A stretch of 64,000 nucleotides of DNA. It comes from Nocardia sp. BMG111209. GTDB taxonomy: Bacteria > Actinomycetota > Actinomycetes > Mycobacteriales > Mycobacteriaceae. Shown here piece by piece: positions 21,437 through 29,483 of the stretch. The notes beneath the pieces are model-generated. The model was given only the letters and a program-made list of their open reading frames with translations, made no database searches and was not told where the DNA came from. Numbering within the stretch: the stretch's first letter is position 1; the number at the start of each line of letters is the position of its first letter. The DNA lies in NCBI RefSeq assembly GCF_000381925.1, contig NZ_KB907309.1, positions 1,240,001-1,304,000 on the forward strand, in the 5' to 3' direction. The translations under genes were made by a program, and so were the position numbers.

Positions 21437-21543
21437 CGCGTTCGCACCCCGGGACCGGGTCGTCACATGCGTGAGTACTAATGTGTTCTATCGGCTCCAC
21501 CTGTCCGTACCGCTGGAAAATCCGCTGGAAAAGGAGAGGTTCG

Positions 21544-21843
21544 ATGACTACTGCACATGCGGTTCACCCCGATCACGACCATATTCACGGTCCCGGTTGT
21601 GGACACGAGTCGTTCCACCATGGTGATCATGTGGACTACGTCCACGACGGTCATCTGCACCGGGAGCACGAGGGGCATTTCGACGAATGCGAGCCGACCG
21701 GCCACGTCGAGCACACCGCCGCACACGATCACGTACACGGCGAGGGTTGTGGACACGCGGCTATTCAGCACGGCGACCATGTGGACTACCTGCACGACGG
21801 CCATCGGCACGCTGTGCACAACGGGCACTACGACGAGCACTGA
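21544..21843 (+). CDS. Histidine-rich duplicated metal-binding protein
   Basis: A 99-residue protein built from two copies of a roughly 40-residue unit. Each has the pattern HDHxHGxGCGH, then HGDHVDYxHDGH, then a His/Asp tail. About a quarter of the residues are His, with one GCGH Cys per unit. It lacks a signal peptide and should be a cytosolic zinc or nickel store or chaperone. The ATG at 21544 has an AAGGAGAGG leader. Related His-rich proteins in actinobacteria are often zinc-linked, but no Zur-type box was recognised upstream. It converges on the CHAT gene, leaving seven bases between stops. Confidence 0.82.
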   Translation: MTTAHAVHPDHDHIHGPGCGHESFHHGDHVDYVHDGHLHREHEGHFDECEPTGHVEHTAAHDHVHGEGCGHAAIQHGDHVDYLHDGHRHAVHNGHYDEH

Positions 21844-21850
21844 CCGGGCG

Positions 21851-24800
21851 CTACGACGAGCACCGATGGGTGTCGACGGTGGCGAACGCCGCCCACAACA
21901 GCGGTGAATCCACCACCTGCCGGGTCTCGCGCCAGGCGGCGAGTCGCTCGCGCTGCCAGCGCAGCAGCGCCTCGACCGGGTCCGGTCGCTCGTGCGCCGC
22001 ATCGATCGCGCACACCGCGTCCTGCAGCGGCCGTGCCTGCGGTCCCGCCGCGCCGAAGCGCTGGAACGCCAGATCCGTCGGCAGCGTCCACCGACTCGCG
22101 GTGACCAGCTCGGCGCCGCCGTGAATCATCGCCGCGAGCAGTCCGAGGGCCTCCCCGAAACGCAGGTCCCCGCCGCTCTCACAGGCGATCAGCGCAACCC
22201 GGCCGGGAATCGGCCACATGCGCGACCCGTCGACCGGATCGGCCGCCGCCGCATGCGTGCCCAGGATCAGATCCTTGGCCGACAGCGGCCGGTGGATCCG
22301 GTCGACCGGGGCGAAACCCGTGGTGGCGTCGGTGCACGCCAGATGCAGCCGGGCTTCCTCGCTGCGTCCGGATTCCGGCGCCGCCGCCGTCACATGCCCC
22401 ACGTAGACCAACCGTGCGGCACCCGCCCGCAGCGCGTGCCCGAGCCAGTCGCGATCGATATCGGTGCGCCGAAAGGCGTCGACCGGATCGCCGACCGCCG
22501 GCCGCAACCGGTCGCCGTATTCCGCGACGCGGCGCGCCAGCGGGGCCTGTCCGTCCATCCGGCCCAGCACCGAACCCAGCGGGGAGTCGGCCCGGAAGCC
22601 CGGCACCCGCGGATCGAGTACGGCCACGACCGGCAACGCGCGATCCGCCGCCCAGGACCGCGCCACCCGCCCCGGCGCGTGCACCAATCCCGTGGGTGCG
22701 AGCGTGCCGATATCGGCGATATCGAGCAGCCGCACCTCCGGATCCGGTGCGAGCAACTCCCACGGAATCCGGGCCACCCGTGGCGACGGCTGCCACCGCA
22801 CATACGGCCGCACCCCGCTCGTCCACAGCCGATGCAACTGCTCCCCCAACCGGAACGGGAGAAACACCCGCGAAAGGTACTGGGCCAGTTCATTTTCGGC
22901 GTCGAATGTGGCCAACTCGCCGCTGATGAAGGCGGATTCGAGCCCACCGGGCATCTCGGGCCGAGGCAGCGCCGCGGCGAACCGGGCGACCGCCGCCTCC
23001 ACCTGCCCCTCGGGAATCACCGCCACCCCAGGCGTATCCACCTCCCCGGCCCAGTGCCAGGACAGATACAGATCGCCCGCATCGGCCATCCGCACGAATA
23101 CCGTGGGCTGTCCGTCAGCGCCGACGGTTCGCTCATCCGCCGAACCCGGAACCGTCGCCGAGCGGGCGGATTGCGCGGACGAACCGCGCACGGTTCGAAT
23201 CGCCGTTGCGGCCCTTGCGTTCTGTGGATCCGCCGCTGGAGGTTCCGATGGTGACACTGCGCGGCCGGTGCCGGTGATTGCCGAGTCGCCGGATGGTCGG
23301 CCGGTGCCGGTGGTTGCCGAGGCACTGGACGTGATGGTTGTGGAGTCGTCGGACCCGGTCGCTGCCGAGTCGTCGGATCGGCTGAGCACCGTGCTGCCTG
23401 AGCGGGTGGGCTCTGAACCGGCCGATCGGGTGGGCACCGAATCGGTGGCGACCGCAGGGCCGGTGGCCGATTCGGCTGTCGGCTCGAAGGGGGTGGTGGC
23501 CGATGTGCTCGGCGGCGTGGTGTCGTGCCCGTCCAGCGTGGGACGCGGGTGGGTGGGTTCGGTGGTCGCGGGGAGGGTTCGCGTGTCGCGAATGGTGCGG
23601 TGGTAGCGGGCTTCCGCGGTGGCGATGTGGTCGGCGAGGGCGATGTGGCCGTCCGGGGCGACTCGTACCAGGGGCGGGGGGCCCACGGCTAGGCCCGCGC
23701 TCGCCGCCAGGTCGGACAGGGCGGTGCCCAGGGTGGCTGCCGCCGAAATCGTAGGGGCCGTGGGTGATTCGGGTGGGGCTTCCGGAATGGTGAGCGGGAT
23801 GGTCGTGGCTCGTTCCGCGGGTTGGCGGTCGGGGGCCGGTATTGCTCCCGCACAACAGGTTTCGACCAGGTCTGCGATCACTCGGGCATCGCGGGCGGCG
23901 GTGGCGAAGCGGAATGCCAGGCGTACGGCGGGTTCGGCGAGGCGGGTGTGCCACTGTTGCCGGTGGTAGCCGTCGGCGAAGGTGTGGCGGACGGCATCGA
24001 TGGTGAGTGCGGCCGGTACCGCCAGGTCCAAGCCGTTGCGGGCCGGATCGTCGCCGGTCGGGTGTTCGGCGAGCAGGGTCGCGCGCCAGAAGTCGATGTG
24101 TGCGCAGTCGAGGCCGCGGCCGTGCCGGGCGTAGGTGTCGAATGCCTCGGACAGTAGGCGTTCCGCCGCGTCGGGACGGCCGGATCGGGCCTCCGCCACG
24201 GCCGTCCGGAGCTGAACCTCGGCGGCCTCCAACACCGCACCGGAGGCGCGGAAGTGGTCCGAACTGCGCCGATACCACTGCCGCGCCGCGACCGGGTCGC
24301 CGGTGCCGTCGGCGAGGAAACCCCGCAACTTCCAGCCGATCGCGGCGCGCGGGCCGAGCCCGTTCCCCTCGAACCACTCCTGGCTCGCGTCGAGCAGCGG
24401 CCGGGATTCGTCGAATTCCCCGGCCCGCAGGTGCATCATCGCGAGATTCTGCTGGGTCTCGGCGATTCCGTTGCGGTCACCGGCCTCGGTGAAGGCGTCC
24501 AGCGCCTGGCGCGCGAAATCGATGGCCAGCGTGTCCCGGCCGGTCTCGAAGTAGACCGCGGCCAGATTCATCAGCGGATGGCCGAGCAGTTCCGGGGCGA
24601 AAAGCATGGCGGCGTCGAGGGATTCGGTGGCGTTCGCCAATGCGTCCGACCAGCGCCGGCCGTGGATCGCCACCGCGGTGATCGACAACAGGCAGGCGAC
24701 CCGCAGACCACCGAACTCCGGATCGTCGCCGAGCAGGTCACGCGCCTCGGTGAGCGCGGCCTGCGCCGCCTCGAGATCACCGAGATGCTGCAACGCCTGG

Positions 24801-25069
24801 GACATGTCGACCAGCGCGGTGGCCCGCATCCGGATCGCGTCATCGGGGATGTCCGGCAGTGCGGTGCGATACCAGTCCAGCGCCGCGGCGTGCTCACCGA
24901 GCAGATCACACATGGAGGCCGCATTGACCATGGCCGCCAACCGAACCCGGCCCCCGGCCGTATCCACCGCCGCCTCGAACATCCGCCGCGCCTGCGCCAC
25001 GTCACCGGTCTGATAAACAGCCGCCGCCTCGTGTAGCGGTGCCCAGTCGTCCGTGCCCGCCTCGCTCAT
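21851..25069 (-). CDS. TPR - CHAT (caspase-like) protease
   Basis: A 1072-residue protein. Residues about 10-330 are helical TPR-type repeats (for example ARRMFEAAVDTAGGRVRLAA, IDFARQALDAFTEAGDRNGI). Residues about 490-640 are Ser/Thr/Asp-rich and disordered. The C-terminal CHAT domain carries the catalytic pair: His892 in LVYVGH and Cys963 in VALIACESGGDLRFGE, 71 residues apart as usual. CHAT proteases cut partner proteins when triggered; in defence systems such as gasdermin or Craspase (TPR-CHAT) they act as effectors. The start overlaps the preceding stop (ATGA). It is the last gene of an operon with three uncharacterised ORFs. Target and trigger are unknown. Confidence 0.88.
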   Translation of the reverse strand: MSEAGTDDWAPLHEAAAVYQTGDVAQARRMFEAAVDTAGGRVRLAAMVNAASMCDLLGEHAAALDWYRTALPDIPDDAIRMRATALVDMSQALQHLGDLEAAQAALTEARDLLGDDPEFGGLRVACLLSITAVAIHGRRWSDALANATESLDAAMLFAPELLGHPLMNLAAVYFETGRDTLAIDFARQALDAFTEAGDRNGIAETQQNLAMMHLRAGEFDESRPLLDASQEWFEGNGLGPRAAIGWKLRGFLADGTGDPVAARQWYRRSSDHFRASGAVLEAAEVQLRTAVAEARSGRPDAAERLLSEAFDTYARHGRGLDCAHIDFWRATLLAEHPTGDDPARNGLDLAVPAALTIDAVRHTFADGYHRQQWHTRLAEPAVRLAFRFATAARDARVIADLVETCCAGAIPAPDRQPAERATTIPLTIPEAPPESPTAPTISAAATLGTALSDLAASAGLAVGPPPLVRVAPDGHIALADHIATAEARYHRTIRDTRTLPATTEPTHPRPTLDGHDTTPPSTSATTPFEPTAESATGPAVATDSVPTRSAGSEPTRSGSTVLSRSDDSAATGSDDSTTITSSASATTGTGRPSGDSAITGTGRAVSPSEPPAADPQNARAATAIRTVRGSSAQSARSATVPGSADERTVGADGQPTVFVRMADAGDLYLSWHWAGEVDTPGVAVIPEGQVEAAVARFAAALPRPEMPGGLESAFISGELATFDAENELAQYLSRVFLPFRLGEQLHRLWTSGVRPYVRWQPSPRVARIPWELLAPDPEVRLLDIADIGTLAPTGLVHAPGRVARSWAADRALPVVAVLDPRVPGFRADSPLGSVLGRMDGQAPLARRVAEYGDRLRPAVGDPVDAFRRTDIDRDWLGHALRAGAARLVYVGHVTAAAPESGRSEEARLHLACTDATTGFAPVDRIHRPLSAKDLILGTHAAAADPVDGSRMWPIPGRVALIACESGGDLRFGEALGLLAAMIHGGAELVTASRWTLPTDLAFQRFGAAGPQARPLQDAVCAIDAAHERPDPVEALLRWQRERLAAWRETRQVVDSPLLWAAFATVDTHRCSS

Positions 25070-25575
25070 CCGCCCACCTTCCGCACCGGCCGCAGCGGTA
25101 CGTCACCGTTCCGGGAGCCACCTGCCCTCGAAGCGCCGGTGCCGCAGGTGATTCCGGCGACTCTCGGGGCAATGGTGCGGCAGGCTATCCCGGCGACCTT
25201 TGAAGCGCCAGTGCCGCAGGCGATCCCGACAACTCTCGGAGCCGTGGTGTGGCAGGCGGTCGCGGCGACCCTTGGAGCGGTGGTGCAGTAGGCGGTCGCC
25301 GCGACCCTTGCTGTGGCAGTGCAGCAGTTGATCTCGGCGGCCCTCGGCGCGGCAGCGCGGCAGCTGATCCCGACGACCCCCGGAGTGCTGGTGCGGTAGG
25401 TGGTCGCGGCGACCGCCAGAGCGGTGGTGCCGCAGACGATCCCGACGGCATCGGCGCTTCTCCCTGCCGCAGGTCGAACGACCACCCGGCCGGATTCGCG
25501 GTCACCCTGCCGGGGACCTGCATGCTCACCGTGCCATCGAGATCCGGCACAGTATGCCCCGAGCGCTGTCCACAT
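25066..25575 (-). CDS. Repeat-built ORF (12-residue repeats) between unknown gene and CHAT gene
   Basis: A 169-codon frame whose ATG (25575) lies one base after the stop of the preceding gene and whose TGA overlaps the CHAT start as ATGA, a placement that supports translation. Residues about 45-165 are nine to ten 12-residue repeats of the type GIACRTIAPRVA, encoded by 36-bp tandem units. The first 45 residues have unusual codon choice. A second minus-strand frame across the same DNA reads VPDLDGTVSMQVPGRVTANP with better third-position G/C and ends at 25185 after Pro/Arg-rich repeats. Which frame is translated is therefore unsure; the operon may have suffered a frameshift in its repeats. Confidence 0.45.
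   Translation of the reverse strand: MWTALGAYCAGSRWHGEHAGPRQGDRESGRVVVRPAAGRSADAVGIVCGTTALAVAATTYRTSTPGVVGISCRAAAPRAAEINCCTATARVAATAYCTTAPRVAATACHTTAPRVVGIACGTGASKVAGIACRTIAPRVAGITCGTGASRAGGSRNGDVPLRPVRKVGG
25103..25462. repeat. Tandem array of 36-bp units (nine, plus one degenerate)
   Basis: Nine contiguous 36-bp units from 25139 to 25462, each opening like GTGCCGCAGGCGATCCCG on the plus strand, with a decayed tenth at 25103-25138. There are no spacers. The period is a multiple of three, and a minus-strand frame stays open across all units while the plus-strand frame of the same phase has two stops. Confidence 0.9.
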
Positions 25576-25576
25576 C

Positions 25577-26647
25577 TCAGAAATCCGTCTCCGTAGCCGC
25601 TATCTCGGCGAGCAGCGGGGCCTCGTACGGGTCGTCGCCGGCGAGGGCCGCGCGACGCAGCCGGGTGGTGGCGAAGTCTCGGATGCGTTGCCGGAGTTGC
25701 TCCGCCGGAACGGATTCGGCCGGGCCCATCCCGGGGACCCGGACGGTCACCGTCACCGGGGCGCCCGGATCGAGCAGTGGTGCGAGTCCGTACCAGTAGT
25801 CGCCGGTGAGGGTCAGCGGGGTCGGTGCGATGGCGGCCGCGAATGCGGTGGGCCGCAGGTGTTCCGGTACGAGGCGGCGCAGTCCGGGGGCCGCGACGGC
25901 CCGGACCCGGACGTTGGTGGCGCCGTCGGCGCGCACGACCTCCCAGGAGACGGCACGTTCCGAGGCATCGAGGATGCCCGGCGGGCAGCGGTACCAGTCC
26001 CAGCCGGTGACGCCGCGGGCCAGGACCGTCGCATCGCGCGTCGCGGCATCCGCGGCTCCGGCGGCGAGGGCGTAGTCGTCGGCGCGGCCGGAGGACGGTA
26101 CGGTGCCGAATTCCTCGGCGGGCGTGCGGATCGTGCCGAAGTCGTCGTCCGGATCCGGTTCGCCGAATGCGTCGGCGCCGTCCACCAGCGCCTCGCATTC
26201 GCCGGTCAGCGTGGCGATCTCGGCGGTGAGCAGCCGATCGTCCAGCGCCGCGATGGCATCGATGGCCGAGGCGGGCCACCAGCGGGCCGCCCAGTGCGCG
26301 TAGCCGAGGCGCCGGGCGGCGGCCGCCAGGGCGGGTAGGCCGGGCCGGGCCGTTGCCTGCCGTGGCGCGCCGTCGAAGTCGGCGACCGCCAGCGCGACCT
26401 CCTCGCCGTACACGGCCCAGATCCACTGCTGGGCGAGATCCGGATCGTCGAGTACCGCGGCCGGAATACGATTGCCGGAGAACAGGTTCCAGGTCAGCTG
26501 GGCGCCGGCGGCGGTCAGCACGAGGGTGTCCGGACCGGTCGCCGCCTCGGCGAGGGTGGCGGTCGCGGGCGGGGCGACGAGCACCGTGCCGTCGGGGCCG
26601 CCGCGCACCTCGACTTCACCGCTGTCGAAAGGGATTTCGGGATTCAT
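25577..26647 (-). CDS. Unrecognised protein of the CHAT operon, 356 residues
   Basis: No family is recognised. The start ATG (26647) overlaps the stop of the upstream gene (ATGA), showing coupling. The N-terminal 70 residues are beta-rich (VEVRGGPDGTVLVAPPATAT). A helical middle follows (LPALAAAARRLGYAHWAARW, SAIDAIAALDDRLLTAEIAT), and a beta-rich C-terminal part (VSWEVVRADGATNVRVRAVA, LTLTGDYWYGLAPLLDPGAP). There is no signal peptide or membrane span. Its place next to a TPR-CHAT gene is reminiscent of the CATRA-type conflict-system proteins described for actinobacteria, but that match is from memory and unproven. It could be the sensor or the substrate of the protease. Confidence 0.8.
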   Translation of the reverse strand: MNPEIPFDSGEVEVRGGPDGTVLVAPPATATLAEAATGPDTLVLTAAGAQLTWNLFSGNRIPAAVLDDPDLAQQWIWAVYGEEVALAVADFDGAPRQATARPGLPALAAAARRLGYAHWAARWWPASAIDAIAALDDRLLTAEIATLTGECEALVDGADAFGEPDPDDDFGTIRTPAEEFGTVPSSGRADDYALAAGAADAATRDATVLARGVTGWDWYRCPPGILDASERAVSWEVVRADGATNVRVRAVAAPGLRRLVPEHLRPTAFAAAIAPTPLTLTGDYWYGLAPLLDPGAPVTVTVRVPGMGPAESVPAEQLRQRIRDFATTRLRRAALAGDDPYEAPLLAEIAATETDF

Positions 26648-27978
26648 CAGCTCGCCCTCGATTCGGCCGGGACCGTATCGGGTTCGGTCGCGAGGGCGCC
26701 GAGGGCCTGTTTCACCCGCATTCGGTGGTCGAGGACGACCGAGCGGGCGACCCCGTCGAGGACGTCCCACAGTTCGTCGGTGGCGGTCATCGGTAGTTCG
26801 CGCACGTCCCGGCCGTGCAGGCGGACCCACAGGCGGCGCAGGTACGGCTGCCAGGGGGCCTGGAGTTCGGCGGCCACGGCGGCCAGCGGGCCGGTGGCCG
26901 CCGGGTCCGGATGGACGGACATCCGCCGGGCCTGCAGGACGTAGGCCTCGCGTCGCCAGCGGCCGTTGATCACCTGCTGCGCGGCGGTTTCCGGTTCGGC
27001 GCCGGTGGTGGTGGGCCGCAGGCCGAGGGCCAGTTCGGCGCCGGCGGTCGCGGCGACCCGCAGCGATTCGTCGAGCAGGGCCCACGGCGCGCAGCTGCGC
27101 GCGATCTCGGCGTCGACCAGTTCCGGGATCTCGGGCAGGTCGGCGCGTTCGGCCGCGGCCTGCAACACGGTGAACACCCGCTCGTGGACGGTGCGGTCGA
27201 AGGGGCGGGCCAGGGTGGCCTTGGCGGCGCTCGTGCCGAGTTCCGGTCGGCGCGGGGCCGGATGCACGGTCAGGCCGAGATGTCTTGCGGTGGGCGGGGT
27301 TTCGGCGGACCAGAGCCGGATGCCGAAATGCGTTCCGGCGCGGGCGTTCAGCAGGGTGGTGAAGATGGCGTGGCCGTCGGCGGGTGTGCGGCGCAACCGG
27401 CTGGTCGCGCAGATCTCCAGCAGCGCACCGATTTCCGCGGTGTGCGAATTGCGCGGGCCGCCGCTGCTGGGCCGTCGTTGCCAGGCCAGGTCGATCAGTT
27501 CGGACAGGACGCGCGCGCGGACCGGGTCGGTGAGGTGGTCCTTCAGCGCCCGGGTGGTCCGGCCGGCGGTGAACTCGTGCAGTTCGCGCACCGCGGACTC
27601 GGCGATCGCCGTGCCGCGCACCGGATCCGGTGCGCCGACGGTGCTCGCCAGTTCGAAACAGCGCTGGAAGTACAGATCCTGTGGATTGCCCTCGGTGATC
27701 CGCAGCGCGCGCCGCACCTGCTTGCAGACGGTGAACCAGGCGGCGGTGGCGCGCAGAACCTCGGCGGCGGCGGTGAGCCGGACCGTCACCTCGATCGCGC
27801 CCTCGGCGGTGAGGATCGGGCCCGCGCACTGCGGATGCTGCACCGGGCGCAGCACCAGGGGATCGAGGATCAGCTTGACGGTGCGGCTCAGTGGGCCGCC
27901 CTGGGGACCGGACAGCGGCTCGACGCCCTCGATCCGGCGCCAAACCTCGTCCAGCACCATCGCGCGCGGCCGTCGCAT
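26647..27978 (-). CDS. Unrecognised helical protein, first gene of the CHAT operon
   Basis: A 443-residue, mostly helical protein with no recognised family. Notable stretches are a VRLTAAAEVLRATAAWFTVC helix and LYFQRCFELASTVGAPDPVR. A repeated helical pattern runs to the C-terminus (WQPYLRRLWVRLHGRDVREL). No catalytic, nucleotide-binding or membrane motif was found. Starts at 27978 or 27960 are both possible. It leads the operon and is coupled by ATGA to the 356-residue protein. The divergent lpqH-like gene lies 152 bases away. Constant coupling to the TPR-CHAT gene suggests it is a scaffold or sensor of the same system; this is inference from context. Confidence 0.8.
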   Translation of the reverse strand: MRRPRAMVLDEVWRRIEGVEPLSGPQGGPLSRTVKLILDPLVLRPVQHPQCAGPILTAEGAIEVTVRLTAAAEVLRATAAWFTVCKQVRRALRITEGNPQDLYFQRCFELASTVGAPDPVRGTAIAESAVRELHEFTAGRTTRALKDHLTDPVRARVLSELIDLAWQRRPSSGGPRNSHTAEIGALLEICATSRLRRTPADGHAIFTTLLNARAGTHFGIRLWSAETPPTARHLGLTVHPAPRRPELGTSAAKATLARPFDRTVHERVFTVLQAAAERADLPEIPELVDAEIARSCAPWALLDESLRVAATAGAELALGLRPTTTGAEPETAAQQVINGRWRREAYVLQARRMSVHPDPAATGPLAAVAAELQAPWQPYLRRLWVRLHGRDVRELPMTATDELWDVLDGVARSVVLDHRMRVKQALGALATEPDTVPAESRAS

Positions 27979-28130
27979 TCGACCAGGTTAACCAACCCGT
28001 GCCCGGATCGGCCAGGGGAAAACCTGGGATCGGTAGGGCGCGAACGATTCCTACCTTCATGACATCGGTTCCACCACGGAGCCGGAAGTACCGAAGCGAG
28101 CGGCAACGCTCCCGACATCGAGGAATTCCG

Positions 28131-28685
28131 ATGAGCACTGCAACCATTCGTCTCTGCACCGCCGCCGTCGCCGCGTCCGCCGCGCTGGCCCTGGTCCTCA
28201 CCGGCTGTGGCGACAGCAAGCCCGCCGCCGCGCCGGCCACCCCGGCGCCGGGCTCGTCCGCTCCGGCGGGACCGGCCGGACCGGCCGCGCTGTCCGGCAA
28301 GTCGACCGTCAGCGTCGACGGCACCGCGCTGGCCGGCTCGTTCGACACCACCTGCGCCAAGCAGGGCGACGTGCTCGCGCTGGCCCTGACCGACAATGCG
28401 AACGGCACCTACGGCACCCTCGCGGTGGCCGCCACGGTCACCGGCACCGGGACCGTGCAGGCGGTCGGCATCACCGGCAGCAAGGGCGGCTCCAGCGGCC
28501 TGCCCTACGCGGTCGGCTTCGGCAAGGGCCAGCCCGGCGGTTCGGCCCAGTCCACCAAGAGCGGCAACACCTTCCACGTCACCGGTGAGGGTGTCGGCGC
28601 GCCGGATATGACCAACCCCACGGCCGGCCCGAAGACCTCGAAGTTCGACATCACCTTCTCCTGCTCGACCATCGTGGGCGGGTGA
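28131..28685 (+). CDS. LpqH-like (19-kDa-antigen type) lipoprotein
   Basis: A 184-residue lipoprotein. The signal peptide ends in the lipobox LTGC (LVLTGCGDS), followed by a Pro/Ala linker of about 35 residues. A beta-rich domain follows with two Cys (TTCAKQGD and TFSCSTIVGG), as in the mycobacterial LpqH family, where they form a disulfide. The ATG at 28131 has a GAGGA site seven bases upstream. It would be anchored in the cell envelope; its function in Nocardia is unknown and may include envelope integrity or host interaction. The next gene, a membrane protein, starts six bases downstream, so they probably form an operon. Confidence 0.87.
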   Translation: MSTATIRLCTAAVAASAALALVLTGCGDSKPAAAPATPAPGSSAPAGPAGPAALSGKSTVSVDGTALAGSFDTTCAKQGDVLALALTDNANGTYGTLAVAATVTGTGTVQAVGITGSKGGSSGLPYAVGFGKGQPGGSAQSTKSGNTFHVTGEGVGAPDMTNPTAGPKTSKFDITFSCSTIVGG

Positions 28686-28691
28686 TCGGCG

Positions 28692-29483
28692 ATGCGGACC
28701 GCGATCCGGGCCGCCGCCGCGACGTTCTTCGTCGTGGCGGTGGGCTGGTACCTCTGGCACGGCCTCACCTACCGGGCCACGGATGCCTTCGGCGGCGCCG
28801 TGTTCGGCTGGGTGGGCTGGCAGATGGCCCTGCCGATCGTCGCGTTGTCGGTGGTGCCGGTGGCCTTCGTGCTCACCAGCACCGCCGTGACCGGGGGCAA
28901 CAGCCCCCGGTTCCGGGACGGGCAGCTGGGCATCGGCACCGTGGAGTCGTTCCGGCAGACCGGGCTCTACGTCAACGAACAGCCGCAGCTGCGCATCGAG
29001 ATGCAGGTGGAGGGCGCCGGGGGCGAGAACTTCCGGTCCCACGCGAAGATGGTCGTGCCGCTGGCCGAACTGGCGCTGCTGCGACCGGGTGTGGTCCTGC
29101 CGGTGCGATATCTGCCGGGCCGCACCGATCGGGTCGAGATCGACCACTCCGGCGATCGCTCGGCGGTGCAGCGAGCCATGAACGAGACGATGATCCGCAA
29201 GGGCTTGACCACTCGCGCCGCCCTCGACGTGGCCGAACGCGGGGTGGCCGCGCAGGCGGTGGTGCAGACGCTGTCGGTGCCGGGCGAGACCCGCGACGAC
29301 AGCACCAAGGTGGACCTGCACCTGCTGATCACCCGTCCGGACGGCAGCACCTTCACCGCCGCGGTGCAGAAGTTCGTCCCGCAGCGCAATATCGGGCAGG
29401 TGCAGGTCGGCCGGATCGTGCAGGTCCGCTATCTCGCCGAGAACGAGCGGGAAGTGGTGCTGGCCCTGCCGGTGAACACCTGA
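28692..29483 (+). CDS. Membrane protein with duplicated beta domain (DUF3592-like)
   Basis: A 263-residue protein. Two N-terminal membrane helices (AAAATFFVVAVGWYLWHGL and MALPIVALSVVPVAFVLTST) anchor a cytosolic part of two similar halves. The first is GIGTVESFRQTG..., LRIEMQVEG..., VVLPVRYLPGRTDRVEI. The second is AAQAVVQTLSVPG..., LHLLITRPDG..., RIVQVRYLAENEREVVL. This VxxxRYLxxN pattern resembles DUF3592/OB-like domains in bacterial membrane proteins of unknown role. The gene follows the LpqH-like lipoprotein by six bases, suggesting a joint envelope function. A strong hairpin terminates the unit. Confidence 0.75.
   Translation: MRTAIRAAAATFFVVAVGWYLWHGLTYRATDAFGGAVFGWVGWQMALPIVALSVVPVAFVLTSTAVTGGNSPRFRDGQLGIGTVESFRQTGLYVNEQPQLRIEMQVEGAGGENFRSHAKMVVPLAELALLRPGVVLPVRYLPGRTDRVEIDHSGDRSAVQRAMNETMIRKGLTTRAALDVAERGVAAQAVVQTLSVPGETRDDSTKVDLHLLITRPDGSTFTAAVQKFVPQRNIGQVQVGRIVQVRYLAENEREVVLALPVNT

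Follow-up and report, generated by a model that had tools for sequence, protein, structure and literature searches.

We report that the gene for a TPR-CHAT protease in Nocardia sp. BMG111209 is part of a six-gene module, which consists of a membrane protein that we call UP, an exported protein (an LpqH-family lipoprotein in Mycobacteriaceae), two orphan proteins that we call A and B, a TPR protein and a CHAT protease. The window, that is, the whole stretch of DNA that was analysed, comprises 64,000 nt of contig NZ_KB907309.1 (assembly GCF_000381925.1, forward-strand positions 1,240,001 to 1,304,000; Mycobacteriales, Mycobacteriaceae) and sits in a 9.14-Mb genome whose nearest named relatives are Nocardia. 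A, B and TPR-CHAT form a three-gene operon on the minus strand. A preliminary description of this stretch had taken that operon as the whole unit; the linkage of A, B and TPR-CHAT was confirmed, but the boundary at A had to be moved, because the LpqH-family gene and UP belong to the unit too. The genes of the module in the window are the following.

28692-29483, plus strand: UP, 263 aa, a membrane protein with N-terminal transmembrane segment(s) according to hydropathy.
28179-28685, plus strand: LpqH-family (Myco_19_kDa, PF05481; E = 4.2e-21) lipoprotein, 168 aa, divergent from A.
26647-27978, minus strand: gene A, 443 aa, soluble orphan family, no transmembrane segment.
25577-26647, minus strand: gene B, 356 aa, soluble orphan family.
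21851-25069, minus strand: TPR-CHAT open reading frame (ORF), 1072 aa.

A, B, TPR and CHAT were all present in 127 of the 130 loci that we fetched, the exceptions being one remnant and two contig ends (A remnants are G313/L091 and G505/L132, the latter lying outside the 130 loci; L127 and L225 are truncated by contig ends). These loci had been picked for holding A and contain 122 distinct A sequences; seven pairs among the 130 are each one genome fetched twice, and L183 and L184 are two copies in one genome. The comparison of 298 genomes of the order, in which A, B and CHAT were searched separately, is not biased by this selection. A turned up in 49 of these genomes, counting one remnant, and B and this CHAT family in 48 each; intact A, B and CHAT (>450 bits) occurred in the identical 48 genomes; two further genomes gave only ∼30-bit matches to other CHATs. 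Conservation of the neighbours with CHAT genes in other genomes, on which the preliminary description had made its proposal depend, was therefore found in both samples.

Class-wide, A was detected in 34 of 394 genomes, once as a remnant, and within Nocardia it is carried by 82 of 98 genomes (two of which, G096 and G097, stand outside the comparisons of 96 genomes described below). Among the best 80 of 450 loci, the named holders of A include N. aurantia, with 91% identity to the A protein of the window, Rhodococcus, R. jostii, R. opacus, Antrihabitans, Streptomyces corynorhini and Phytomonospora. The module is also found in environmental Mycobacterium/Mycolicibacterium. Records filed as plasmids that hold A come from five Streptomyces and one Nocardia farcinica; on the 1.6-Mb linear plasmid of Streptomyces sp. 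NBC_01237 (L317:8920-14576), A-B-TPR-CHAT is accompanied by an exact copy of the DNA motif presented below, with UP and LpqH undetected. In Nocardia albiluteola, the module lies on two contigs (L183 and L184; G082:C3 and G082:C34) with A identical over the compared stretch, either a duplication or an assembly duplicate.

The two genes on the other side of A follow the same distribution. The lipoprotein of the window scores 75.9 bits against PF05481 (cut-off 23) and, judged by eye, carries a lipoprotein signal, a hydrophobic N-terminus that ends in LTGC, its relatives being alike in this respect. In UP, hydropathy indicates one or two transmembrane segments depending on the species; the window copy has no Pfam match at E ≤ 0.1, and one relative has a weak DUF3592 match. 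Of the 96 Nocardia genomes compared, 81 contain A, and LpqH was found in these 81 and no others, an agreement of 96/96; UP agreed with A in 94 of the 96. One of the two mismatches is G003, where A is present but UP is not. The other is G055, whose assembly is fragmented into 1340 contigs; it has UP plus a CHAT fragment and was counted as lacking A. On a leuS tree of 29 Nocardia genomes, this pattern corresponds to six changes between presence and absence, at least three of which are forced by well-supported branches of this single-gene tree. Absence of the module in Nocardia is thus explained by repeated losses as a unit. In four genomes the empty site could be recognized, with the GH25 and His-rich flanks ∼88-211 bp apart versus 7.7 kb in the window; these four genomes group together in the tree and possibly reflect a single event. 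Nine other loci fetched from genomes lacking the module had rearranged or partial sites. The His-rich flank that borders both the module and the empty site encodes a 120-aa protein (window 21481-21843, plus strand) with HVDYVHDGH-like near-repeats, possibly metal-binding.

The association is also maintained where the physical arrangement differs. LpqH is retained 2.9-13.1 kb away from A in eight genomes (G007, G023, G026, G042, G052, G062, G071 and G081) and on a different contig from A in G039 and G085. In seven Mycobacterium loci all six genes recur but are arranged differently (lipoprotein, TPR, CHAT, UP reversed, A and B), the UP match being short in three of these loci. In seven loci of families f14 and f15, the place of the lipoprotein is occupied by a protein with one predicted transmembrane segment and weak PQQ-type matches, here called PROP, and in three f34 loci PROP stands downstream of CHAT. 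As a universal partner PROP was discarded, since these 10 of the 130 loci, all from families f14, f15 and f34, are the only ones in which it was found.

Members of the module share a DNA motif located between LpqH and A.

28020-28036, minus strand: conserved motif CTACCGATCCCAGGTTT, the sole exact site in the window.

For the analysis of this region we took the 92 loci in which LpqH and A are divergent, removed seven with gaps longer than 900 bp and added the window, giving 86 intergenic regions of 60-900 bp, 78 of them distinct. The core TACCGAT was present in all 86 (78/78 distinct sequences), and CTACCGATCCCAnnTTT in 79 of the 86 (71/78 distinct). Genome wide, when one mismatch was allowed, the motif was present in all 81 module-bearing Nocardia genomes, compared to 2 of the 15 genomes lacking the module, and the exact motif was found in none of these 15; as a control, the motif read backwards gave six matches across the 96 genomes. 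The site falls in the LpqH/A region in 80 of the 81 module-bearing genomes, a count read from the site table. When up to two mismatches are allowed, the motif is also found near A, LpqH, UP or PROP in other families, usually twice per Mycobacterium locus, and such a search yields scattered chance sites as well, including in loci that lack the module.

Exact sites also occur away from the module, 44 in 41 genomes as read from the site table. At 19 of the 21 distinct off-module sites that were examined, the motif is followed after 44-46 nt by the start of a 132-aa protein, which contains several hydrophobic stretches (multi-TM protein); the remaining sites, L355 and L362, have an exact motif without this gene. 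The multi-TM protein, which by eye we presume to be similar to DUF4870, is encoded at L319:1545-1940 and in loci L352-L354, L356-L361 and L363-L365. The motif seems to mark a whole regulon.

An alternative is that LpqH and UP are bystanders and that A, B, TPR and CHAT alone make up the functional unit. Absence of both genes from some families would agree with this explanation, and adjacent genes can be lost as one block. It is nevertheless hard to reconcile with a concordance of 96/96 for LpqH and 94/96 for UP across several losses, with the retention of LpqH despite insertions of 2.9-13.1 kb, with the persistence of both genes in the rearranged Mycobacterium order and with the shared motif, and we regard it as very improbable.

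The protease itself can be divided into three parts, the second of which separates two recognizable domains.

23810-25069, minus strand: TPR part, residues 1-420, a gene of its own in most relatives.
23120-23809, minus strand: linker, residues 421-650, low-complexity and fast-evolving.
21851-23119, minus strand: CHAT protease part, residues 651-1072.
22394-22396, minus strand: codon of the catalytic His892.
22181-22183, minus strand: codon of the catalytic Cys963.

The TPR assignment is clear (Pfam TPR_12, E = 3.1e-22). With the full-length 1072-aa protein, Pfam gave TPR-type families only and no CHAT match at E ≤ 1, and the excised C-terminal 420 aa matched PF12770 with E = 7.4e-5 and 22.8 bits, the Pfam cut-off being 24. 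The same family was matched at E ≤ 0.1 by 23 of 26 relatives (best E = 3.3e-17), and the CHATs adjacent to A in G104, G127, G130, G139 and G148 scored 36-64 bits, above the cut-off. The CHAT part of the window is a divergent member of PF12770, with predicted protease activity. His892 and Cys963, which had been described as intact, are indeed invariant in the 26 sequences aligned, out of ∼40 available at that stage, and lie 71 residues apart in the window protein. Separate genes encode TPR and CHAT in 113 of the 130 loci, and a single ORF encodes both in 14, among which are the nearest relatives of the window; three loci could not be scored. CHAT closes its ORF, with at most 18 residues beyond the CHAT envelope in 126 CHAT ORFs. 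Hydropathy revealed no transmembrane segment in TPR-CHAT, A or B.

The partners of the protease in the operon, A and B, belong to no known family in PADLOC, Pfam or NCBIfam, as already proposed from the letters of the window. Apart from single matches at chance level, no Pfam family was found in the 27 members of A or in the 29 members of B that were searched; in NCBIfam, A gave two matches only (E = 0.02 and 0.19), far below the cut-off. No usable result came from profile or sequence searches of the PDB with A, B, CHAT and the multi-TM protein, the best of four matches of B having E = 0.17. Within B, two conserved parts flank a variable middle, and the C-terminal tail is conserved. Labels attached to single UniRef homologues (lantibiotic dehydratase for A, NUDIX hydrolase and proline dehydrogenase for B) did not hold: at E ≤ 0.1, families of the first two kinds were matched by no member of A or B, and a weak match to the N-terminal proline dehydrogenase model in one member of A (E = 0.033) was deemed chance. 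The match of one B member to a Cdc6 lid model (E = 0.02) was judged in the same way.

The operon had been counted as four ORFs, with a repeat-built ORF between B and TPR-CHAT. The operon stands, with three genes instead of four, because the additional 169-aa ORF derives from a tandem array.

25125-25447, strand not assigned: 36/72-bp tandem array, which yields the 169-aa ORF at 25066-25575; not a gene.

The array is lineage-specific, and the reading frame happens to stay open across 25125-25447. Codon-position GC of this ORF is 0.64/0.74/0.75, compared to 0.75/0.55/0.89 for gene A. The ORF had zero tblastn matches in 20 Nocardia loci and zero blastn matches in L022 or L023; in L022, the closest relative, the array is absent at the corresponding place. 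Given the 36-bp array, the deviant GC and the missing relatives, the ORF is not supported as a gene. The translational coupling of A and B also needs correction: rather than ATGA, the junction is TGATG, with a one-base overlap at 26647, and ATGA is the overlap of the array ORF with TPR-CHAT.

The ratio of nonsynonymous to synonymous substitutions (dN/dS), calculated against three relatives, was below 1 for every part measured. It ranged from 0.13 to 0.42 across A, B, TPR and CHAT, with the highest of the four values in B each time, from 0.15 to 0.36 for UP, from 0.18 to 0.62 for LpqH and from 0.07 to 0.30 for four flanking genes. In Nocardia, the module is mostly found at one chromosomal site beside conserved genes. 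Ten neighbours taken from L122, L123, L124 and L129, which belong to other families, gave no PADLOC match, and nine of the ten have Pfam families, mostly metabolic; a defence-island setting was accordingly unsupported among these ten genes. PADLOC gave no match among the module proteins scanned either, and relatives of A were found neither in 50,697 phage records nor by a pattern scan of IMG/VR.

The protease family is not tied to a single set of partners. A second cassette in the same genome (G000:C3:226757-233034; L242:3758-10035) comprises TPR, two orphan proteins X and Y (462 and 464 aa) and CHAT2, and X, Y and CHAT2 occur together in eight more Nocardia loci (L266-L273). CHAT2 belongs to the same family as the CHAT of the module (hhalign probability 100, E = 1.4e-98). 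In contrast, hhalign detected no homology between A and X or between B and Y (probability <1%), and UP and LpqH were undetected in the loci of this cassette. One protease family thus serves at least two partner sets. Genome G003 has a further pair of TPR and CHAT genes of the module CHAT family without A, B, X or Y (L243:8493-11376), and another CHAT (Pfam E = 4e-43) lies in a 1256-aa open frame of the own genome (G000:C2:198647-199462; L001).

These data bear on the role in defence or cell death that the preliminary description had attributed to the operon, and for which we found no evidence: the locus is mostly fixed at one site in Nocardia and lost as a unit, the ten neighbours tested gave no defence genes and are mostly metabolic, PADLOC gave no match to the module proteins scanned and A has no phage or viral relative in the collections searched. 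If the module were an anti-phage abortive-infection system, it would sense infection and CHAT would cut a partner, so that the cell dies or halts growth. CHAT and TPR-CHAT proteases do act in CRISPR-linked defence, according to PMC10028731, and the repeated loss of the module resembles that of dispensable defence genes; the second cassette, which pairs the same CHAT family with other partners, and the occurrence of the module on Streptomyces megaplasmids point in the same direction. Against it stand the single site in most Nocardia genomes, the ten neighbours and the PADLOC results, the lack of a positive selection signal over whole genes and the poor fit of envelope partners, all of which make abortive infection unlikely.

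A lipoprotein and a membrane protein that soil and environmental actinobacteria retain or lose along with CHAT, A and B suggest instead an envelope-coupled TPR-CHAT proteolytic switch, in which a cytosolic caspase-like protease would be controlled at the cell envelope. We put this forward tentatively, with a confidence that falls just short of even. In such a switch, CHAT would be inactive as long as it is complexed with TPR, A and B, and UP would bring this complex to the membrane. An envelope signal, whose nature we can only guess, would free CHAT; the signal might be sensed via the lipoprotein and UP or by TPR, A or B themselves. Freed CHAT might then make a limited cut in a partner of the module, perhaps B, a guess based on B being the fastest-evolving of the four operon parts and on the variable stretch between its two conserved regions. 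Cleavage would in turn switch an output, either envelope stress or cell death, to which the co-regulated multi-TM protein may contribute. Roles of A and B as sensor or substrate are likewise putative, and the cleavage of Csx30 by Csx29 in Craspase offers a precedent for the limited cut by analogy only.

The presence of exported and membrane partners, the shared motif and the broad retention in Nocardia (82/98 genomes) would also fit a CHAT that serves envelope homeostasis as a regulatory or processing protease and is not lethal, one that, for instance, matures or limits UP or the exported partner with no death output. Yet an exported lipoprotein is out of direct reach of a cytosolic protease, and two orphan partners plus TPR suggest a gated switch over plain processing; we consider this explanation somewhat unlikely, though less so than abortive infection.

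Several observations weigh against the envelope-coupled switch. UP was undetected in the fetched span of 18 of the 130 loci; those without UP include L085, L123, L125, L126, L128 and L129, from other families, and several Nocardia loci with an insertion or a contig end. LpqH is confined to Mycobacteriaceae and L085, and neither LpqH nor PROP was present in the fetched span of 20 of the 130 loci. The joint loss of LpqH and UP could in part be the deletion of one physical block. In two of the three comparisons, the dN/dS of LpqH was the highest (0.62 and 0.46). As for the motif, the module of G006 has no site at up to one mismatch, that genome having the motif only elsewhere; where LpqH is distant from A, the motif stays by LpqH; and no multi-TM gene adjoins the off-module one-mismatch sites in the genome of the window or in its two nearest relatives.

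A broader and distinctly speculative form of the envelope-coupled switch, to which we assign a rather low probability, is an undescribed actinobacterial regulon. Here, the LpqH-family lipoprotein or the membrane-anchored PQQ-like protein would, together with UP, gate the cytosolic TPR-CHAT through A and B, and the multi-TM protein under the same operator would execute a membrane response. Such a regulon would represent a bacterial outside-in caspase-like pathway and provide a physiological partner for the 19-kDa lipoprotein antigen family. It would link CHAT proteases, this family, which includes a mycobacterial antigen, and a motif apparently marking the whole regulon, which are unconnected in the literature searched. 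Its function would be directly testable: the motif could lead to the regulator, mutation of the catalytic Cys would be clean, and A and B would be a starting point for a substrate search. As R. jostii, R. opacus and environmental mycobacteria carry the module, non-pathogenic hosts are available.

Structures of Csx29, the Craspase protease, are reportedly deposited in the PDB; our 26-sequence CHAT profile gave two unrelated matches among PDB chains at E ≤ 10 and none to Csx29. The likeness to Csx29 of type III-E systems lies in the combination of TPR and CHAT, the His/Cys dyad and a neighbour as possible substrate, as Csx30 is. According to PMC10028731, Csx29 cuts its neighbour Csx30 once, which relieves inhibition of a sigma factor, and its dyad is H615/C658, with a spacing of 43 residues versus 71 here. 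The module also differs from Craspase in that TPR and CHAT are mostly separate genes and in that the partners are orphan and envelope proteins. As to Cas7-11, Csx30 or CASP-sigma beside the protease, A and B matched no PADLOC or Pfam model, a result that covers these two proteins, since the search for Cas genes did not extend to all loci.

Bacterial gasdermin operons carry caspase-like proteases. Their likeness to the module is that such a protease, a candidate substrate and a membrane protein are joined in one regulon; the difference is that A, B and UP have no Pfam or PADLOC family, although whether a gasdermin model is present in these libraries was not checked. The closest described theme among those compared is the EACC1-caspase pair (PMC7159879), an actinobacterial, membrane-associated system in which a single-TM protein goes with a caspase fused to many variable domains. 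Both are actinobacterial and link a peptidase of the caspase superfamily to a membrane protein. The module departs from that pair by its constant gene content, two orphan families, TPR, an exported partner and a CHAT that ends its ORF; with at most 18 residues after CHAT in 126 ORFs, the variable C-terminal fusion is absent. UP itself had no Pfam match at E ≤ 0.1 that would identify it as EACC1, the presence of an EACC1 model in the library being unchecked. CATRA are named in PMC8195603 as caspase-dependent ternary conflict systems. VMAP ternary systems are defined by MoxR ATPase, vWA and VMAP genes; apart from the Cdc6 lid match of one B member, neither A nor B matched an AAA ATPase or vWA family at E ≤ 0.1, and TPR-CHAT matches TPR-type families only.

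In the open-licence literature of PubMed Central, we found no report of the module or of a link between LpqH and CHAT, and the motif sequence gave only unrelated matches. The lipoprotein of the module resembles the mycobacterial 19-kDa LpqH in belonging to PF05481 and differs from it in being tied to a CHAT protease.

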